Positions 16,401 to 46,736 of a DNA stretch of 64,000 nt are shown here, in pieces (position 1 is the stretch's first letter; each line of letters starts with the position of its first letter). The stretch spans positions 2,719,001 through 2,783,000 of the forward strand of contig CM067531.1 of assembly GCA_034509925.1 (NCBI GenBank), read 5' to 3'. Source of the DNA: Hirudinaria manillensis (Eukaryota > Annelida > Clitellata > Hirudinida > Hirudinidae). The translations under genes and the position numbers were made by a program. The notes beneath the pieces are model-generated. The model ran no database searches, was not told the DNA's origin, and worked only from the letters and a program-made list of their open reading frames with translations.

Positions 16401-19400
16401 AATCTTTCTTCTTTTTTCTAATAAAATGGAAAAGAACCAATGCTTTTATTGCAATTTGAGACCAAATCTGATTTAATCACTGGTTTTAATCAAAGATATT
16501 TCATTCTCAAAAATAAACGACTTGGAATCATAAATGATTCTCCAATCTTTGATAAAAAATATTTTCAAGTTGCATCTCCATACTTTGATTCCCAAAGCGT
16601 GAAGTCCAACTTCTAATAAGACATTTTTTATTTTTTCCCGTCACGCTCCGTCGACAGAGGGGGGCCTTCGTCAGTGAACCTGCGATCCTGGTGAAGTACA
16701 AGAACAGACCGAGTCAGGTTTGGTCAATGGAGAAGTTTGAGAATCGAGTGATCGACATGAGGGACTATTATGCAGAGCACAAGGAAAGAGGACATCCCTG
16801 GGAATGCCTGGATGTGAGTTGGCAGAGCCAGTGGTTCCGATGTCATTAGGATATTATGACGTCATTAATTACTAATTATTAATTAGTAAGCTTTAATTAG
16901 GCCCTATTCAGGATTAGTATACAGTATAAAGTATATACAGTATAAAAAATATAGTATAAAGGTATACAGTCTTTACTGGTTTTAAATAATTTTTACACTT
17001 TAAACATAAAATTGTAAAGAATTATTAGTTTGAAAAAAAAGTTACAAATTAATCATTCACTAAAAAAAACGTATTAGGTCACTAATGGATGGAATACCTA
17101 GAGCAGTAGAAGTTGTTATTATGGTTGTCGTTAGTTATTACAGTACCTGGAATACCAGGAGCAGTAGTAGTAGTTGTTGTTATTACAGTTGCTGTTGGTA
17201 GTCTCTCAGTCGTCTGCAACTTCTTTTCCAGGTGCTGGTCCCTCCGGAAAGGGACGATCCGTTCTTCGAGGTCCACGAAAACCACCACCTCATCGGAGTG
17301 GCGAACGTCTTCCTCGAAGTTCTCTTCTACGACGCCAAACTTGACTACCACGTCCCCATCATCAGCCAACAGGGAGAGGTTCATATTTGAAGTCTTTAAT
17401 AAATAAATAAATAAATAAATAAATAAATGGATAAATAAATAAATCGTCTAATTTGAATTTAATCATTTAATTTTGTTTTGGTTTTAGTTTTTGAAATGTT
17501 TAGTTGCAATAATAGTTAGAATTTATTGTTGTGAATTTGTTGTTTTTTATTATTTATGTCTGTTTATTTGTGTTATTATTGTATTGTTTAGTATGTCAAT
17601 GAGAAATGTTTTGAGTCCTAAGTTCATCATTTAGACGTTTTATTTTCCTGTCTCCAGGTGGCAGGAAGACTGCACGTGGAAATATCGAGACTGTCAGGAA
17701 AGTTCATAGAAACCCCCGTCTACGATCCCAACGTCAGCAGCAACAGCAGCAGCAGCAGCTGCTGTGGTTCCTTCACCGGAAGTTTCATCGAAATGGAAGA
17801 CGAAAGTGGGACCGGGTTTTCCGTCGGTTCATATGTCGTCTGCAAGGTAAGAACAAAAAAGACACTGTTTTATGATAAAGGAATGTGTTTATGAATTAAT
17901 TTCTGACGAATTTATTTGCTAATTTGACTTAAAATGTGGTAAATTTAATTTTATAAATTATTTAGGCATAAACATTCAAAAAGTTTAATTTAATTTCTAA
18001 TTTAAAATGTAATGCACATGTAGATTTAACAATTATAAATTTCATAATTGTAAACCTTAATAATTTTAAAAATTAATTTAATCATTTTATCTATTAATTC
18101 AGAAAATCATAAATTTAACATTAGGTCGTCATAAAGGAGGCCAGGGGACTGCCGCCAGCGGTGTCGAACCTGGTCTTCTGCCAGTACAACTTCTGGGGAT
18201 ATTCCGATGTCATCACCGTCGAGCCGTTGTTGTTGGGGGAACAAACTTCGGCAATCACGCTCGAGAATATCAGCGTCAGGTTCAATCACACCAAGGTGTG
18301 GAGTCGGAGCTGTTGTGTGTTGTCTGCCGTTGTTGTTGTTGTTGTTGTTGATGTTAATATTTCTGGTGATTTTATTTTGATGACATTCTTTGCTTGTATT
18401 TTTTTAATAGATTGTGAGTCTGGCAAGGAATCATAAATTAATTAATTAATTATAAAGGAATTATTAATTATATTTATTATTTATTATAAAGGAATTATCT
18501 TTTAATTACTGTATTTTCTTTCATTTAATCTTTTAAACATTCAATACATTACATCACATTTATTACTATTATTATTATTATTTCTAATAATTACATTAGA
18601 CTGTATAATTCAAATGTAAATGTCACCAACAACAAGTTAACATGGAGGAAATAATCCAAGTACAAAAGACTCCACCTTCCAGGAATTCCTGTTCCAAGTG
18701 AACGAAGAATTTCTCGAGCACTGTGCAGATGGCGCTCTTTCCATTGAAGTCTGGGGTCACAGGGGCACCGAACTCAGGGGACTCCCGGGTTGGGGCATCG
18801 AACAGGTCCACGCAAAGTCTCGGTCGGCCCTCGACAGGTGCTCCTTAGAATAATTATTCATAATTTTAATAATTATTCATAATTTTAATAATTATTCATA
18901 ATTTTAATAATTATTCATAATTTTAATAATTATTCATAATTTTAATAATTATTCATAATTTTAATAATTATTCATAATTTTAATAATTATTCATAATTTT
19001 AATAATTATTCATAATTTTAATAAATATTCGTAATTTTATTAAATATTCATGGTAAGAATAATAATTACAAATTTATTATAGTGATTATTTTCAATTAAT
19101 TACTTGGTTGACAGTTTTTTTTTATTTTCCAAAATTGTCTTTTGGAAGTTTTGAACATATATTTTTGTAAATAATAAGAGAATGCTCCTTAATTTAAAAC
19201 ATATTTACAAGTTTTTATATAATTATTTGGGATTAAAAATAGATTAAGATATTATTATTTATTATTAAATTATTATTGTTATTATTAACAATGTTATTTA
19301 TATTATAAATATATTATTTATATTATAAATATATTTTTTATATTACATTTATGTTATTATTTATGTTTAAATTAAATAATTAAACATATCACTCGTATTT

Positions 19401-30245: not shown

Positions 30246-31358
30246 GCATGGTCAATTAGGGATCGATACATCCATTCTCTATCCTCATCTGTGATGTGTT
30301 TTGCAGAATAGCTTTGTACTACAACTTTGTATAAAAGCTATCGATCTAGTCCCGGTTGTATATAAAGTGACCCGATGTCGACTCGGAGATGGGCTGAAGG
30401 CTGGCCTGGAGGAGTTCAGCCGGATCCGAATCGAATGTGGCCCGAAGATGGACCGAAAGTTGCTGGGGGGATAGGCGGAAATCCAATGATGACATTTTCC
30501 AACACCCTCAGCAATGACTGGCGACAGGTTTTCAGTTCAATTTTCTGTTTACTCAAAAGTGAAATAAGGAAATTAATTTTAATTTTAACAGACTTAAGTT
30601 TTAAATTAATCGATTATTAATTTTTTATAAGATTTATCTAACATTTTTTCTTTTACATTTATTTTGAGGTTTTGTGAAGACTCCTATTTTGTTGTTTCTC
30701 AGGCCTGAAGCTTCTTGAAAGTCTAAAGATGGCGTTGAAAATCTTCTGTCATTGTTTCTGGTCACGAACGTCCCTGGAATTTTGGAGGTTTTAGTCCGCA
30801 GCCATTCTAAGGGGAAACCACACAACTGCAACAACAACGACGACGACGACGACCAACGACGACCGATGACGACCAACGACGACCAACGACGACCGACGAC
30901 GACTATAACGACGTCAACAAAGACAGACTCGAATTGGTTCAGTTAAAGGTAAATAACTGTTTATTGGGTTTATTGGAATTGTACTAAATTAATTAATTAA
31001 AAATTAAATTAATTTTTATTTGGTATTAATCAGTATTTTGGATCATCACATCGATGGTTGGAAAGATGATTATGCTTGTGAGCTGAAGCGTTGGCAGTAA
31101 GTTCTTTGAAGGTCTTTGTTACCATAAAGAATTATTACTTTAAATACTAACCAAAAACATTTCATGTATTGTTGTTTTATGAGTATTTATTTATTTATTC
31201 ACTTATTTATTTATCTATTTATTTATAGAGTGCGGGCAGGTTTACCTTTCTCCGTTGATTTTCGCACAAAACGTCGTTATAAATAGAATATACCTCCAGC
31301 TAACAGTCTAATTTTGTTGTACTCACTGAAATACACTAATTCGGCAAATTTGTTTGAA

Positions 31359-32105
31359 ATGGCGAGGTCGCTAACGCCGGATAGCCTTGAAATGATTCTG
31401 AACGCTGTTATGAAACAAGCGAATGAAAATTCGAACCTCCTGACAAAACAGCTGGGGGAGCACATGACGAACGCAATTGGCCAAATGAACACCAATATGA
31501 ATAAGATGTTGGAGGCATTTTCAACAACAATTCAGGTCATGATGTCGCAAATAACCAAAACGTTGACTGAAGCTCTGAATGAGATGACTAAAACGTTTCT
31601 GACCAGGATGGAGACTCTCGAACAGTCATTTGTAACTCGTGCCCCCAGCGTGGATTTGACAGAGATCAAGAATGTCTTGTTGAACGCCGAAAAAGAAAGA
31701 GTTGAGAAGAGCAGGCGCTCAACAAATGTTATTGTTTCCGGCTTACCAGCTCAGCCAACACTCGACGATACCAAACTTGTACATAACTTCATCGAGCAGA
31801 ATCTCACTGTGAAGCCTGCCATCACAAATATACGTCGTTTTGGGAAAGATCCCACTAATACTAAGCTCTGTATCACTCTCTCGAACTCTGAGGCAGTAAG
31901 AGACTTGATCTCGTCTTCTAGAATTCTCAGAATTTCCCAAGATGCTGCCGTCAGAAAAGTATTCATGAACTATGACTTGACGCCCAGCGAAGCTGAAGCG
32001 GCCTACCAGAAAAGATGCCAGAGAAGACTGAAAACCGCTCAGAGTGGCTCAACAAAGGCATCCACAACCGAGACACAACCAACCTCTCAGCCCTTTCGGA
32101 AATGA
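31359..32105 (+). CDS. LINE ORF1: coiled coil plus RRM-like RNA-binding protein
   Basis: A 248-residue protein from ATG at 31359 to TGA at 32103-32105. Residues about 20-105 are heptad-like and rich in Asn, Gln, Met and Thr (coiled coil). From about 130, RSTNVIVSGLPAQPTLDDTK, ITNIRRFGKDPTNTK and VFMNYDLTPSEAEA follow the layout of the RRM and C-terminal part of L1-type ORF1 proteins. These are RNA chaperones that coat the element RNA for retrotransposition. Its last 74 bases overlap the ORF2 frame. Confidence 0.8.
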   Translation: MARSLTPDSLEMILNAVMKQANENSNLLTKQLGEHMTNAIGQMNTNMNKMLEAFSTTIQVMMSQITKTLTEALNEMTKTFLTRMETLEQSFVTRAPSVDLTEIKNVLLNAEKERVEKSRRSTNVIVSGLPAQPTLDDTKLVHNFIEQNLTVKPAITNIRRFGKDPTNTKLCITLSNSEAVRDLISSSRILRISQDAAVRKVFMNYDLTPSEAEAAYQKRCQRRLKTAQSGSTKASTTETQPTSQPFRK

Positions 32106-34899
32106 ACCAAAATCATGGGCCTCCACAAATATCAGAAGCCTAATCAGCAAAAGAGAAGAACTATCTTTGTTTTTGAAAAGCCACAACCTAGAGGTTTTTG
32201 GTTTGGCTGAAACTTGGTTGAACAACGAACCCGATGGCTTATTTCTGTTAAAAGAATATCAGGCTTTTCGTTGCGACAGGGGCTCTCGGGGTGGAGGTGT
32301 TGCTCTACTTGTAAAGAAAAATCTTAAAGTTAGACAAATACCCATACCGTTGGAGTACAAATCCATTGAAATCGTTTGTGTTGATATTCTTACGTGTTGT
32401 TCAACTTGCCGAGTTATTACCTATTACAGACCAACCGGGTTCAATTCAAATTCCGTTGAGTATGCCAAAAAAAGTGTACAGTGTTTGGACTATCTGTGCA
32501 GGAGTACTGGACTGGTATGCGTCATGGGAGATTTCAACCTTCCGTGTGTCAACTGGCAAAACCACTCCCACCCCAACAATGAAATCTATAATACATTTAT
32601 CAACCTATTTGACGAGATGGGACTTCACCAATTTGTCCAGTCACCAACGCGACAATCTAACATCTTAGACCTGCTCTTCTCCAACGATTCATGTTTCATA
32701 TCAGACATCAGGATAATGCCACCAATCTCCCAGAGCGACCATAACACCATTGTCTTCAAAGTGAATCTTCCAACCCAACCAGTCACAATTCATAACCTGA
32801 GATACAGACACTTAACTAAATCAGCCTATGAAAATCTAGACAGCTACCTTTGCAACATAAATTGGAATGAGTTGTTCCAATACTGCTTCTCTGTTGATGA
32901 CTGTTGGAGAGTGTTTACAGATATTGTTAGCAACGGCATCAATAGCATCGCTCCCGAACGTGTCAAACTCGGCACCACTATAAAATCACTCAAGCCTTCC
33001 TACCCCAGTTTCATTCTAAAGGCTCAAAAACTAAAGCTTAAAGCCTTTCGCAAGTGGCATCAAAGCAAAAGAAGCGAAGACAAAATTATTTTCAACGCTT
33101 TCTCCAAAAAACTCAAGAAAGTCATAGACGAACACCACGAAATCCAGGAAAACAGGCTGGCACTGACCGGCAATTTAGGACAGTTTTACCGCTTCATCAA
33201 CAACAAACTTTCAGCCCATAACCCAGTGCAAGAGCTAAAAGCCCAAGATGGACTCTACACATCAGATCCAGATAAAATAGCAAATATTTTCAATAGATAC
33301 TTTTGCAGTGTTTTCACAATCGATGATGGAATATGCCATGCTATGTCTCCACGCACCAGCAAAAAAATTGATCAATTAATGTTCACTCCTGATCGCACAT
33401 ACCAGACACTCCGCAAGCTCAAACCGTCCCTCTCATCTGGTCCGGATGGAATCACTAACACTCTCCTCAGAAACTGCGCTGCTGGTCTCTGTTTGCCACT
33501 CTCCCATATCTTCAACTTCTCCTTCAATATGCACGAATTACCCCTTGATTGGAGATCTGCCCATGTAACCCCCGTACACAAAAAAGGGGCCACTTCTGAT
33601 CCTGGTAACTACCGACCAATATCGCTCACATCCTCCTGCTGTCGAGCAATGGAACGGATGATCAACAAAGACATCTTAAACTACCTTCAAGCTAACAACC
33701 TCATATCACCTGAACAGCATGGCTTTTTAAATTCCAGATCTACGTGCTCCAACCTGATTGAATGTACATATGATTGGTCGGCATCAATGAACCAGGGAAC
33801 AGACATAATATACTTTGACTTTAGAAAAGCCTTCGACTCGGTGTCTCACCTAAAGCTACTATCTAAACTTCAGGCCTATGGCATCTCAGGCAATCTACTT
33901 TTATGGCTTGAAGCTTTCTTATCCAACCGAACCCAGGCAGTAAAAATTAATGGCCACCTTTCCAATGAAATGGACGTGATTAGTGGCGTGCCTCAGGGGA
34001 GTGTGCTTGGACCTACACTTTTCCTTATATACATTAACGATGTTACCGATACGCTTAACGATAACTACGTCAAATCAAAACTATTTGCTGACGATATCAA
34101 ACTGTACTCAGCATCACCACTCACTCAAAGTTCCTCCCTGCAGTCTGCTATTAATAAGTTGGTGTCATGGAGCAACAGGTGGCAACTACAGCTTGCTCCG
34201 GAGAAATGCATCCAAATCTCTGTCAGGTCAGCTCGTACCAGGACTCCACCTAGACATTATACAATTGCATCACAAACAGTACCTCTATTAGAAACTACCC
34301 GGGATCTCGGAGTCCTCATCGACGACAAACTTACTTACAAGGCACACATCAGCAATATTGTCCACAAAGCATTTGTGAGGTTACATTTGATTTCCAAATG
34401 CTTTCGCACCAGGAACAAAAACATTTTAACCAAAGCATACTGCTCCTTCGTCCGGCCGATTCTCGAATACTGCTCCCCAATATGGAACCCACACACCAAA
34501 CAGCTTAAAACTAAAATAGAAAAGGTGCAAAAATATTTCACAAGAATGATTCCTGGTCTCAGAGCTCTGCCCTACCCCAACAGACTAAAACAACTCGGAC
34601 TCAAAACACTCGAACATCGTCGCCTCATCTGTGACTTATGCCTATGCTACAAAATAATCCACGGCCATACTATATGCAAGATTCCAGAGTTCCCTACATT
34701 TCTAACTTCCAGAACCCGTGGTCATCCCCTTCGTCTACGCCAAGAGAAGTGTCTCACCAGTCACAGGCAGAACTTTTTCACCAACCGGATCATCAAGCCC
34801 TGGAACTCCTTACCCCTTGATATAATAAACTCCTCAACTTTATCCCGATTTAAATCCTGCATCTCGACTACTGACTTCAACAAATACCTATCAATTTAA
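32032..34899 (+). CDS. LINE ORF2: endonuclease and reverse transcriptase
   Basis: An open frame of about 955 codons bounded by TGA at 32029-32031 and ending at 34899. The N-terminal EEP endonuclease shows NIRSLISK, FGLAETWL (catalytic Glu), SRGGGVALLV, MGDFNLPCVNW and SQSDHN. The reverse transcriptase shows SSGPDGI, NYRPISLTSS, QHGFLNSRST, FDFRKAFDSV, SGVPQGSVLGP and KLFADDIKLY with the catalytic Asp pair. The C-terminus has ILEYCSPIWNP. These perform target-primed reverse transcription. There is no ATG before the endonuclease domain; the first Met is in VMGDFN, about 160 residues in, so expression probably depends on ORF1 translation. Confidence 0.92.
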   Translation, partial: KPLRVAQQRHPQPRHNQPLSPFGNEPKSWASTNIRSLISKREELSLFLKSHNLEVFGLAETWLNNEPDGLFLLKEYQAFRCDRGSRGGGVALLVKKNLKVRQIPIPLEYKSIEIVCVDILTCCSTCRVITYYRPTGFNSNSVEYAKKSVQCLDYLCRSTGLVCVMGDFNLPCVNWQNHSHPNNEIYNTFINLFDEMGLHQFVQSPTRQSNILDLLFSNDSCFISDIRIMPPISQSDHNTIVFKVNLPTQPVTIHNLRYRHLTKSAYENLDSYLCNINWNELFQYCFSVDDCWRVFTDIVSNGINSIAPERVKLGTTIKSLKPSYPSFILKAQKLKLKAFRKWHQSKRSEDKIIFNAFSKKLKKVIDEHHEIQENRLALTGNLGQFYRFINNKLSAHNPVQELKAQDGLYTSDPDKIANIFNRYFCSVFTIDDGICHAMSPRTSKKIDQLMFTPDRTYQTLRKLKPSLSSGPDGITNTLLRNCAAGLCLPLSHIFNFSFNMHELPLDWRSAHVTPVHKKGATSDPGNYRPISLTSSCCRAMERMINKDILNYLQANNLISPEQHGFLNSRSTCSNLIECTYDWSASMNQGTDIIYFDFRKAFDSVSHLKLLSKLQAYGISGNLLLWLEAFLSNRTQAVKINGHLSNEMDVISGVPQGSVLGPTLFLIYINDVTDTLNDNYVKSKLFADDIKLYSASPLTQSSSLQSAINKLVSWSNRWQLQLAPEKCIQISVRSARTRTPPRHYTIASQTVPLLETTRDLGVLIDDKLTYKAHISNIVHKAFVRLHLISKCFRTRNKNILTKAYCSFVRPILEYCSPIWNPHTKQLKTKIEKVQKYFTRMIPGLRALPYPNRLKQLGLKTLEHRRLICDLCLCYKIIHGHTICKIPEFPTFLTSRTRGHPLRLRQEKCLTSHRQNFFTNRIIKPWNSLPLDIINSSTLSRFKSCISTTDFNKYLSI

Positions 34900-40148: not shown

Positions 40149-40294
40149 AATTACTTTATTATATTATATTATATTATATTATATTATATTATATTATATT
40201 ATATTATATTATATTATATTATATTATATTATATTATATTATATTATATTATATTATATTATATTATATTATATTATATTATATTATATTATAT
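40149..40294. repeat. Perfect (ATATT)n pentanucleotide array
   Basis: About 28 uninterrupted copies of ATATT, the only pentanucleotide array of this size in the window. Confidence 0.95.
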
Positions 40295-40539
40295 TAAAAC
40301 AAATGTTTTTTGTTCTTCCATTATTGTGATGCCTGTGCCCGAACAGGCGAATTTAATCTCCAGTGATGTCAACACAAAGAATTGTATTCCACGAAATTCT
40401 TTTCCTCCCCTCTTTTTTTCCGGATCACGAAATGATCCTCCATGAAAATGGCTGCCAATTACCGCTGGAAAACGATAGCACCCTCAACACGTCCGAGCAA
40501 CAGGAAAAGGACACGTATATATCCTTCTTATTTCTTACT

Positions 40540-42242: not shown

Positions 42243-42408
42243 TCGGTCGATGATGACGACGACGACGACGACGATGACAAATGACTTTTGAAAAAATCTG
42301 CCAATAAACTTCACAAAAGCCAGGAAAATTCGAAATTGTTGATGGCTTACAATTTCACGTTTAACGATTTTTCTATAATTTCATAATAAATTTCAAATGA
42401 TTTTAACT

Positions 42409-42434
42409 TATTATTATTATTATTATTATTATTA
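42409..42434. repeat. (ATT)n at the 3' edge of the R4-like element
   Basis: About eight ATT units. In the element's orientation its 3' UTR ends ...TGTGTA and runs directly into TAATAA. Confidence 0.95.
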
Positions 42435-45400
42435 TACACATTTTTCCTGCTTCTTCTCGGTCTCACAGCCGGTGATGAATGAATGCTGAGCACTACCAGT
42501 GCTCTCAGCAATTCACCCAAGAACTTTTCGAAGAATGTGGGCAGTGCCCAGCAAGGAGATCTTCTGAATCTCCGAAGTCTTTGGTCGTCCTGGTATCAAC
42601 TCTACATACTTTGTAAAGTCTTTTCTTAGCGTTCCGAGCGCTCCTACAATTACCGGAACGACTTTAGACTTCACTTTCCACATCCGGTTGATTTCAATCT
42701 CCAGGTCCTTGTATTTGCTAATTTTTTCAGCTTCTTTGAGCGCGATGTTCTTATCATCCGGAACTGAAACATCGATTAGCATGCAAGACTTGGATCTCCT
42801 GTCATGGATAACAATGTCAGGTCTGTTGGCCAATATTTTCCTGTCCGTGATAATCGCATAGTCCCATAGAATGGTGCAATCTTTTATATTCGTCACACTT
42901 TGGGGCGTGTGCTCGTACCATTTCTTTGGAACTTCCCATCCTAGCTCACGGCATACAATCCAGTGGATGTAACTGGCCACCTTATTATGTCGGTGCAAAT
43001 ATTCAGTTGCTGCTAACACAGTGCAACCCGACGTTATGTGGCTTATCGTTTCTTGGGCCTTGCCACAGATCCTGCAATTGCCATCTATCTGCTGCTTCAA
43101 TATCATACGTTGATGGTAACGTGTGTTTAGTGTCTGGTCTTGAGCTGCCATGATCAAACTCTCAGTTTCGCCTTTGAGCCCAGCGCTTCTTAACCAAGCA
43201 CAGCTTGCTTCTTTGTCCACCCAATTCTTTTCTAAGTTACAAAAGAATTGTCCATGCATGGGCTTTTCCCTCAATTCATTTATTCTCTCCTTCTCCATGT
43301 TGTCCTTTAACATTTCTTTCACGGATGTTTGAACTGTGGGCAAGGACAGATATTTATTTTTAATTGTCTTTGCTTCCTTAAGGAGAGAATATTTTGCCTT
43401 CCCTGCTTCATGCTTTTTGACAAGACTACAGAGCCTGTCTTTGCCCTGTTCAATATAATCACTCAAGTTAACCATGGAGCATCTGTAAGCAGACATCAGT
43501 TGGATAAGTCCCCGGCCTCCATTGCGTCTCTTAATGTAGAGTCGACTAACATCTCCTTTTGGGTGATGAAGTCCATGCATCGTCAGCAACTTTCGTGTCT
43601 TGCGATCCATTTTGTCGATTTCAGACTTTCTCCAATCAATTATGCCAAAGCTATAGGTGAGCACTGGAATTGCCAAAGCATTAATTGCCGATAACTTGTT
43701 CTTGGAGTTTAACTCTGACTTGAGAATGAGACGCACCCGACGGTAATACTCTCTGGCTATTTTCTCCTTCATTTCAGGATGTTTAATGTCACCATTCTCA
43801 TCGATTCCAAGATATTTGTACGCCTCCTCTTCGTTAAGACTCTGAATTGAATTGTGATCGTCAAATGGCATGTTTCGGCTTTTGATCTGCTTGCCTCTCT
43901 TCATTATAGCTACGGCACACTTGTCTAAACCGAACTCCATGCAAATGTCATCAGTAAACGTTTTGACTGTAGTTAGGGCCTTGTTAAGTTGGGTTTCTGT
44001 TTTAGTAAATATTTTTAGATCATCCATGTAAAGTAAATGAGATATTTGTTCTTTTGGTTCTATTTCATATCCTAATTTTAATTTATTTAGCATATTTGAT
44101 AAGGGTACTAAAGCCAAACAGAAAAGGAGGGGTGAGAGAGAGTCACCTTGGAAGATTCCTCTCTTAATGCTTATTCTATTGGTTTTTATGCAACCTAACT
44201 GATGACACAGCATAAGTTCGGTTTTCCATTCTTTCATCGAGCATTCCATGAAACCGGTGATTCTAGCAGGGACTCCATACATCTTCATTGACGCCAAAAT
44301 CCAAGAATGAGGGACACTATCGAATGCCTTCTTATAATCAATCCATGCCATTGCTAAATTCCTCTTCATTCTTTTGGCAGTGCTTACAATCATCTTGTTT
44401 ATAAGCAACTGGTCTTTACAACCTCTTGACCCTCGTTGACAGCCTTTCTGTTCTATAGGGAGAATGTTGTTCTTATCAAGGTGTGTGTATAGCCGGTTTG
44501 ATATTGCAGAGGTCAGCAATTTATATAAGGTGGGAAGACAGGTTATAGGTCGGTAATTTTTGGGATTGTTTTGGTTTGCACCTTTTGAGAGGAGAAATGT
44601 TACACCGGAGGTTAGCCAGGATGGTATATTTTCTGGGTTATTAATCAAATCATTAAAAGCTATTGTAAGTATACTATGGAGAGAGGTAAAACGTTTAATC
44701 CAGAAATTTTGTATATTGTCAGGGCCTGGGGATTTCCAATTTGAAGATTTTTTAATAACTTCCTGAATTTCACTTATTTTAAATTCTTTCCATTCTTCTG
44801 TAACCACATTCCTAAATGCAATTTCCTCATCTCTTACCCAAGCAGCTTCAGTGTTGTGCACAATTTCATTCTCAAGAATTCCTCTCCAAAATTCTTCAAT
44901 TTTCTCTACAGAGGGTGGGTCACTAATTGCTTCGTTTCGTTTACATAAATGACGGTAAAACTTCTTTGCATCCTCCTGGAAAAGCTTATTTTGATGGTAC
45001 CCATCATTTCTTTTACAGTATCTCTTTAACCTTTGGGCAGTAGCCTGCAATTTCATCTTAATGTCTTGCTCCTTCTCTTCTAGGGACTTACTTTCGTCTT
45101 TGAAGAGGTGTTTAGCCTTATTGTGAACCCTCTTTGTTGCCACACCCTTTTTTATTTCACTTATAATTGATAAATCCTTCCTGTACTGTTCTACTTTATT
45201 GCTGATCCGTACTTTCCATGCAGGTTCTTTCCTTCCAACGGGGCCATCTCGTGGTTTCTGCACTCCAGCTATGACACTGGCTGAGCAATAGATTAAATCA
45301 TTAATTTCGCTTATATTAAGTTGCCTACCACTTATCATTTTGGATAAGATCTCATTAGCTGCCTTTATCTTTTCTAAGGTATCCTTGCATATTCTTACTT

Positions 45401-46660
45401 TGTTAAGCTTTGGCCTATTATTGAAATCCAAGTGTTTATTTTCAAGCAATCTACTTTTAATTTGTTGTTCTAATTCAGTAATATTTGTTGCTGGATCTTG
45501 GGGGTACTGAATGGTCAGAGAGTCAATTGCTTTCTGTGGAGACTGAAACTTTCCCTCACTTATCGATTCAACTACAATTTCAGTTTGTGTTTCTGATAGA
45601 TGCCTCTCTGCGTTCTGACATGCACGATTTTTAATGCCTTGGAGTTCCTTGTCATTGAATTTCTTTGTGTTAATAATCCATCTTCTGGTGTTTGCTAGAG
45701 TATCCTTATTGATATTCTGGTGTATCTCAGGATTTCTACTTCTCCACGTCGTATAAGTTCCTTTGACAACTCCTCCTTCATTTTTATTAGCTTGCGCATA
45801 ATAAAAACACCACATCAGTTCAGCATACTGTTCCTTGGTCCACTGTTGCTTTTTATTCGCTAACTTCGAATTATTGACTTTAACAGTCGACTTGTAATCC
45901 TCAGATAGTCCATTTTGAGACTGTGTCTCGGTCTGGTGACTATTTGAAGAACTTAAGGAAACAACACTACGAATTTCCGCGCGACGTTTATTTTGATCGG
46001 CTAATATGGCAGCATTCAACTTTTGAAGATATAAAGAATTAGAATTATATTTATTAAAATGCATAATTTATGATGAGAGAATGATGGGCCTAGCAAATCG
46101 AAAATTTAAAATTTCAAAACAGCTTCAAAACGCCAATACGTTAAAATTTGAAATTTTACGTTACAATGGCGGTCGTTCTTGTTTATAAAATGGCGATTCC
46201 GGCATTAACAAACCGCACAAAAATTCAATAAATTCAAGCAAAACTTGGTTTATTAAGTAATTTATATTTTTTGGTGTTAGCTTGAAACTTTTAAGGCTAT
46301 CCTTGACTAGTTTTAGCTGGAACCTTACAAACGAAGCTGAAGATACTATCTAAATAACTTCTATTAAATAAAGTTATGAGCAACACAGATTAGATTAAAC
46401 CTTAGTCGACCAAGTTTGTTAATAGGTTATAACGTTAGAATTTAAATATCTTGACTATTAATAAAGTAACTTGGTTGGTGTTCCACCAGATTTTCTGCAG
46501 CAGAACAAAACTTAACGAAACTTATATCCTCTAATAGGATTTTCAAAACTACACTTAATCGCTAAAATTAAAATTTGATTAAGAGCAGTTTGAAGCAAAA
46601 TATTTCGATTAATCCCTTTTGAGCGTCCTGCGTGCCAGCACGATCCGCGTCGCCACGGAA
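42435..46660 (-). mobile_element. R4/Dong-like non-LTR retrotransposon in a TAA array
   Basis: About 4.2 kb on the minus strand: a 5' UTR of roughly 600 bases, one 1,183-codon frame, and a 3' UTR of about 75 bases. Both ends meet TAA/ATT microsatellite (42409-42434 and 46661-46736). The single frame, YMDD reverse transcriptase, late CCHC knuckle and C-terminal restriction-like endonuclease put it in the early-branching LINE group, nearest in appearance to R4/Dong. Dong of Bombyx is known to insert into TAA repeats, and the flanks here match that. The open frame suggests recent insertion. Exact ends need alignment with other copies. Confidence 0.85.
42513..46064 (-). CDS. R4/Dong-like polyprotein: Myb-like, reverse transcriptase, REL endonuclease
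   Basis: 1,183 residues, ATG at 46064 with an in-frame TAA directly upstream. Residues about 70-135 (QWTKEQYAELMWCFYYAQ ... TTWRSRNPEIHQNI ... TRRWI) look Myb/SANT-like and may bind DNA. The reverse transcriptase follows: NWKSPGPDNI, NYRPITCLPT, QKGCQRGSRGCKDQLLI, AWIDYKKAFDSVPH, KRGIFQGDSLSPLLF, LLYMDDLKIF (catalytic Asp pair), AYKYLGI. Then a CCHC knuckle (CRICGKAQETISHITSGC) and a restriction-like endonuclease (RPDIVIHDRR ... CMLIDVSVPDD). The C-terminal ISLLGTAHILRKVL is usual in such elements. The protein nicks the target and primes reverse transcription there. I see no N-terminal zinc fingers of the R2 kind. Confidence 0.92.
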   Translation of the reverse strand: MHFNKYNSNSLYLQKLNAAILADQNKRRAEIRSVVSLSSSNSHQTETQSQNGLSEDYKSTVKVNNSKLANKKQQWTKEQYAELMWCFYYAQANKNEGGVVKGTYTTWRSRNPEIHQNINKDTLANTRRWIINTKKFNDKELQGIKNRACQNAERHLSETQTEIVVESISEGKFQSPQKAIDSLTIQYPQDPATNITELEQQIKSRLLENKHLDFNNRPKLNKVRICKDTLEKIKAANEILSKMISGRQLNISEINDLIYCSASVIAGVQKPRDGPVGRKEPAWKVRISNKVEQYRKDLSIISEIKKGVATKRVHNKAKHLFKDESKSLEEKEQDIKMKLQATAQRLKRYCKRNDGYHQNKLFQEDAKKFYRHLCKRNEAISDPPSVEKIEEFWRGILENEIVHNTEAAWVRDEEIAFRNVVTEEWKEFKISEIQEVIKKSSNWKSPGPDNIQNFWIKRFTSLHSILTIAFNDLINNPENIPSWLTSGVTFLLSKGANQNNPKNYRPITCLPTLYKLLTSAISNRLYTHLDKNNILPIEQKGCQRGSRGCKDQLLINKMIVSTAKRMKRNLAMAWIDYKKAFDSVPHSWILASMKMYGVPARITGFMECSMKEWKTELMLCHQLGCIKTNRISIKRGIFQGDSLSPLLFCLALVPLSNMLNKLKLGYEIEPKEQISHLLYMDDLKIFTKTETQLNKALTTVKTFTDDICMEFGLDKCAVAIMKRGKQIKSRNMPFDDHNSIQSLNEEEAYKYLGIDENGDIKHPEMKEKIAREYYRRVRLILKSELNSKNKLSAINALAIPVLTYSFGIIDWRKSEIDKMDRKTRKLLTMHGLHHPKGDVSRLYIKRRNGGRGLIQLMSAYRCSMVNLSDYIEQGKDRLCSLVKKHEAGKAKYSLLKEAKTIKNKYLSLPTVQTSVKEMLKDNMEKERINELREKPMHGQFFCNLEKNWVDKEASCAWLRSAGLKGETESLIMAAQDQTLNTRYHQRMILKQQIDGNCRICGKAQETISHITSGCTVLAATEYLHRHNKVASYIHWIVCRELGWEVPKKWYEHTPQSVTNIKDCTILWDYAIITDRKILANRPDIVIHDRRSKSCMLIDVSVPDDKNIALKEAEKISKYKDLEIEINRMWKVKSKVVPVIVGALGTLRKDFTKYVELIPGRPKTSEIQKISLLGTAHILRKVLG

Positions 46661-46696
46661 ATATTATTATTATTGTTATTATTATTATTATTATTA

Positions 46697-46736
<40 letters not shown>
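46661..46736. repeat. (ATT)n at the 5' edge of the R4-like element
   Basis: ATT with GTT interruptions, equal to (TAA)n in the element's orientation. It pairs with the 42409-42434 tract on the other side. Confidence 0.95.

Follow-up and report, generated by a model that had tools for sequence, protein, structure and literature searches.

We analysed a 64,000-nucleotide stretch of the genome of the leech Hirudinaria manillensis (GenBank assembly GCA_034509925.1, contig CM067531.1, positions 2,719,001 to 2,783,000; hereafter the window), whose minus strand carries a long interspersed nuclear element (LINE) lying between two TAA arrays. This is very likely a non-long-terminal-repeat (non-LTR) retrotransposon of the restriction-like endonuclease (RLE) type, R4/Dong-like and probably still active, that inserts into (TAA)n by target-primed reverse transcription. 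We searched the window's own assembly (148.4 Mb, 23 contigs) for the two ends of the element and obtained 306 matches to a 20-base stretch close to the 3′ end (at most 2 mismatches) and 53 matches to the first 30 bases of the 5′ untranslated region (UTR; at most 3 mismatches); backward control patterns for both searches gave zero matches in the genome. Flanks were read for all 53 5′ ends and for 73 3′ ends, and an end was scored as adjoining TAA when at least 20 of 24 bases matched the repeat, on the 5′ side in the best stretch within 15 nt. By this measure 46 of the 53 5′ ends adjoin TAA, compared with 2.0% of 20,000 random window positions outside the element, as do 54 of the 73 3′ ends, compared with 1.6% of 20,000 such positions. 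An earlier note made from the window alone (the sequence-only reading) had proposed this comparison, and the flanks of the family are indeed TAA repeats more often than random sites are.

The element contains a single open reading frame (ORF) and is laid out as follows, in window positions. For the comparison of copies we used a core of 4226 bp (42436-46661).

42435..46661, minus strand: whole element, 4.2 kb, from 5′ TTTCCGTGG... to 3′ ...ATGTGTA, with ends set by comparing copies
46662..46735, minus strand: interrupted TAA array, the target array on the 5′ side, 74 bp, 94% matches
46065..46661, minus strand: 5′ UTR, 597 bp
42513..46064, minus strand: single ORF, 1183 codons plus stop, among the three window ORFs of at least 250 amino acids (aa)
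43803..44564, minus strand: reverse transcriptase domain, aa 501-754, RVT_1/PF00078 with E=1.2e-31, YMDD at aa 679
43023..43076, minus strand: CCHC zinc knuckle, aa 997-1014, by motif
42675..42824, minus strand: restriction-like endonuclease motif region, aa 1081-1130, by motif letters
42435..42512, minus strand: 3′ UTR, 78 bp
42408..42434, minus strand: (TAA)9, the target array on the 3′ side, into which the 3′ UTR end ...ATGTGTA runs straight

The ORF and repeat coordinates confirm the intact 1,183-codon minus-strand frame between TAA arrays described in the sequence-only reading. Both junctions that it had placed also hold, the 3′ UTR passing into TAA at 42434 and the element starting at 46661 (TTTCCGTGGCGACG) directly after the interrupted TAA array.

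The protein supports assignment to the RLE-type LINEs, as judged from its reverse transcriptase, its CCHC knuckle, a PD-x14-D...K motif and the R2-type character of the solved relatives found by sequence. The restriction-like endonuclease motif is defined as RPD-x14-D followed by K-x2-KY, and these letters can be read at aa 1081-1118 of the ORF. Five distinct PDB sequences match the ORF at E≤0.01 in a sequence search (9nl2, 9nl3, 9dou, 8gh6 and 8ibw), and LINE-1 is not among these five. The match to 9nl2 has E=4.2e-37, and the CCHC region aligns weakly with the C-terminal part of the same R2 protein (E=0.0011 in one search). While 9nl2, 9nl3 and 9dou were deposited as R2 proteins, 8gh6 and 8ibw were deposited merely as 'reverse transcriptase-like protein'; we take these two to be R2 of Bombyx. 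The R2 endonuclease is described as having a PD-(D/E)xK fold in excerpts of PMC10499050.

The element shares with R2 the order of reverse transcriptase, then CCHC and endonuclease, as well as the five PDB matches. However, R2 targets 28S ribosomal DNA (rDNA), whereas the leech element lies in TAA flanks, and R2 has one or more N-terminal zinc fingers, whereas a pattern search of the leech ORF found no zinc finger besides the C-terminal CCHC, and in particular no N-terminal CCHH finger. R4/Dong elements have an N-terminal SANT/Myb-like domain and no zinc finger. They combine a reverse transcriptase, a C-terminal CCHC and a restriction-like endonuclease in one ORF, as found here (the endonuclease by motif only), and insert into rDNA or a microsatellite, (TAA)n in the case of Dong, in agreement with the TAA flanks of the leech element. 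The element is thus best called R4/Dong-like. PMC7998251 (section 3.3) states that Dong-like elements of the R4/Dong clade insert in (TAA)n, and the excerpted text of PMC3774820 places the 5′ junction of Bombyx mori Dong on TAA repeats, describes a self-cleaving 5′ ribozyme in this element, and attributes a 5′ ribozyme like that of hepatitis delta virus (HDV) to both Bombyx Dong and Ascaris R4. The use of TAA repeats as targets by Dong-type elements, invoked in the sequence-only reading, is therefore published (PMC7998251, PMC3774820). Since TAA targeting is already known for the clade, and Dong shares with the leech element the reverse transcriptase, the restriction-like endonuclease, the (TAA)n insertion and the 5′ junction on TAA, the element is a further, clean example and no new kind of system.

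We consider it improbable that the element belongs instead to HERO or NeSL/Togen, some of which also target microsatellites. NeSL and HERO have an N-terminal CCHH finger, and it is this finger that the pattern search of the element ORF did not find. Both groups are likewise of the RLE type, and excerpts of PMC4640811 name HERO families with microsatellite targets and Togen families specific for (TG)n, a target that differs from the (TAA)n of the leech element. Scans of viral and prokaryote contigs returned no relatives of the element.

Returning to the R4/Dong-like assignment and its target, we examined how the copies meet their flanks. The 73 3′ ends form a sample conditional on an intact 3′ end and comprise 30 of the top-scoring similarity matches and 43 ends from the 3′-end pattern list (limited to the first 100 places, which match exactly and lie on contigs C1-C7); 13 of these 43 were picked because their 5′ end was known. 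TAA adjoins 26 of the 30 ends found with a TAA-containing query and 28 of the 43 chosen by the pattern list, that is, by element sequence alone. The register of TAA after GTGTA (GTGTG once) is identical in 72 of the 73 ends, L103 being shifted by two bases. As first unit, 65 ends have TAA, three CAA, two TAG, two TGA and one TAT; with CAA, TAG or TGA in 7 of 73, the target is reflected already in the first unit. Starting from 25 further 5′ ends, we inspected the expected position of the 3′ end: 15 were intact and all 15 in register, two were all N, four had no 3′ end there, and in four (L152, L157, L161 and L170) the 3′ end was shortened or altered, yet continued into TAA-type sequence. At the other end of the element, the starting TTT is intact in 46 of the 53 5′ ends and a G stands directly before it in 37 of those 46, which makes GTTTCCG the probable start of the element; this G is missing from the window copy.

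Copies that have lost their 5′ end indicate that the arrays are the target rather than a part of the element. All 13 readable 5′-truncated copies, which are cut at different points, have TAA upstream. Five belong to the six truncated copies in the set of 3′ loci (L010, L011, L030, L033 and L038), the sixth, L018, bordering N. The other eight (L172, L174, L175, L176, L178, L179, L180 and L181) belong to the ten scored ORF copies without a listed 5′ end, of which L173 and L177 border N. For L174, L179, L180 and L181 we placed the breakpoint by eye. L176 and L178 are short by just 6 and 14 bases, and L030 and L179 have a short or imperfect array upstream. As an observation on the assembly, N runs lie beside or over the element ends at L018, L154, L166, L173 and L177; these may be gaps in the assembly, perhaps caused by breaks at TAA arrays.

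These copies speak against the idea that the element makes the TAA tracts itself, with a TAA tail added at its 3′ end and a TAA leader as part of its 5′ end, and we regard this as very unlikely. The I factor has a TAA tail, and tail addition would give the 3′ register that is identical in 72 of 73 ends; however, in 8 of 73 ends the first unit already departs from TAA, TAA-type sequence is still reached where the 3′ end is shortened or altered, and TAA lies upstream in 13 of 13 readable copies with differently truncated 5′ ends. That the surplus of TAA flanks merely reflects the genome, which is very rich in TAA arrays, is refuted by the counts, since the background is just 1.6-2.0% of window positions and another LINE family has no TAA array in 12 3′ flanks.

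This other family is represented in the window by a two-ORF LINE of the apurinic/apyrimidinic endonuclease (APE) type (31314-34899, plus strand), whose ORF2 contains Exo_endo_phos and RVT_1 and which matches LINE-1 first in the PDB sequence search. Its copies are many and near-identical: we scored 40, with 92-100% identity, among 268 first-look candidates, and took the 12 control 3′ flanks from these 40. None of 11 flanks reaches 20 of 24 TAA matches within 15 nt (the best has 15), and L080, the remaining one, shows no array by eye. The copies end in an AAAT-type tail.

Several observations weigh against a TAA-targeting R4/Dong-like element. First, 30 of the 73 3′ ends come from the search with TAA in its query, and this batch therefore favours TAA. 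Second, 19 of the 73 3′ ends do not reach the TAA threshold, mostly with short or interrupted arrays. Third, unrelated flanks, which the sequence-only reading had named as evidence that would tell against it, were looked for, and while most ends lie in TAA, 7 of the 53 5′ ends miss the threshold. At L121, L134 and L139 the array is imperfect, and L135 has a short TAA array behind a piece of the same element. The other three have no array at the junction: L126 is immediately preceded by a piece of the same element, L129 shows some 40 bases of filler, and L132, with no adjacent TAA array, is explained by a 120-bp target-site duplication described below. Fourth, the name R4/Dong-like is based on architecture and target. 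Finally, Dong has an HDV-like ribozyme and a SANT/Myb domain is reported for the clade, but neither was detected in the leech element: the ORF gave no Pfam match and no credible PDB sequence match for SANT/Myb, and searches for an HDV-like 5′ ribozyme, against Rfam with a cutoff of E≤10 and with a home-made descriptor that had no positive control, found none.

Two arrangements of neighbouring copies were seen among these loci. The element pieces at L126 and L135 abut a full 5′ end on its upstream side, which looks like a joining of two copies during insertion. L057 and L134 each form a head-to-tail pair with another family member, having inserted into the TAA tract that follows it.

Of 1580 first-look candidates for the ORF, 39 were scored in a protein search. 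Every one of these copies spans residues 1-1183 and is 98-100% identical, and 38 are without a stop. Among partial loci, the 5′ half is open in 25 of 30 and the 3′ half in 21 of 24 (copies not truncated inside the locus). Because the scored ORFs are near-identical and open, the family is probably young and still active. With about 300 recognisable copies in a repeat-rich 148 Mb genome, dozens of them open, it offers a good natural data set on how RLE retrotransposons, which are of interest for gene insertion tools, target microsatellites.

The copies show both strand choice and register, with TAA on the sense strand of the element at both ends in most copies, full-length and 5′-truncated alike. 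In the mechanism that we propose, the endonuclease would nick the TTA strand of the array and the freed 3′ end would prime the synthesis of cDNA from the GUGUA terminus of the element RNA. The second strand would then be primed within the array, and rarely beyond it, which would produce a target-site duplication. One such duplication reaches unique DNA. At L132/L164 (contig C10, about 3842000-3846600) a perfect 120-bp direct repeat flanks the copy, extending from the TAA array into unique DNA; this is a target-site duplication, and it accounts for the position of the L132 5′ end outside TAA. We compared 42 pairs of 5′ and 3′ ends in this respect. A filtered search of the 41 other pairs gave zero non-repeat matches, and an unfiltered search pointed to L058/L157 as a second, likely duplication, whose score mismatched pairs can also reach. 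Duplications of long stretches of unique DNA are the exception, and those wholly inside an array are invisible because the repeat hides them.

Excerpts of PMC10499050 describe how the R2 protein reads an upstream motif from -34 to -22 plus bases -6 to +1 of its target, and how nicking survives a change of the downstream DNA from +6 on. If the leech element reads its target like R2, the 5′ arrays should exceed the 3′ arrays in length. In 38 paired copies the longer array is on the 5′ side in 29 and on the 3′ side in eight, with one tie (Wilcoxon p=0.002). These pairs omit 15 of the 53 5′ ends, ten without a readable intact 3′ end and five not looked up. The asymmetry is a lead, as it is confined to the first batch, where 21 of 23 pairs have the longer array 5′; among the 15 pairs of the second batch the array is longer 5′ in 8 and 3′ in 6, with one tie. 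We offer as a speculative and rather doubtful suggestion that the element depends on a long TAA stretch on the upstream side of the nick and requires little TAA beyond it, much as R2 depends on its upstream motif, and that the second-strand cut may fall up to 120 bp downstream, with the long duplications normally hidden in the repeat. If true, the 5′ array would grow with each insertion, which would tie the growth of the microsatellite to that of the element in a small but real way.

The genome contains 186,172 overlapping matches to (TAA)9 on both strands. In the window, 188 such matches fall in 19 exact (TAA)≥9 arrays on both strands, in keeping with the 'over a dozen' long TAA/ATT tracts counted in the sequence-only reading. 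Extrapolated on the assumption that the window is typical, this gives about 18,800 exact arrays genome-wide versus 306 element 3′ ends, so the element accounts for a small part of the arrays only. The further proposal of that reading, that element and microsatellite expanded together, is not supported by these numbers, although there may be a small effect. Two other tandem repeats were seen in the window, a perfect array of 28 TATTA units (40157-40296) and a 19-bp repeat (18849-19051) with 10.7 copies and 97% matches.

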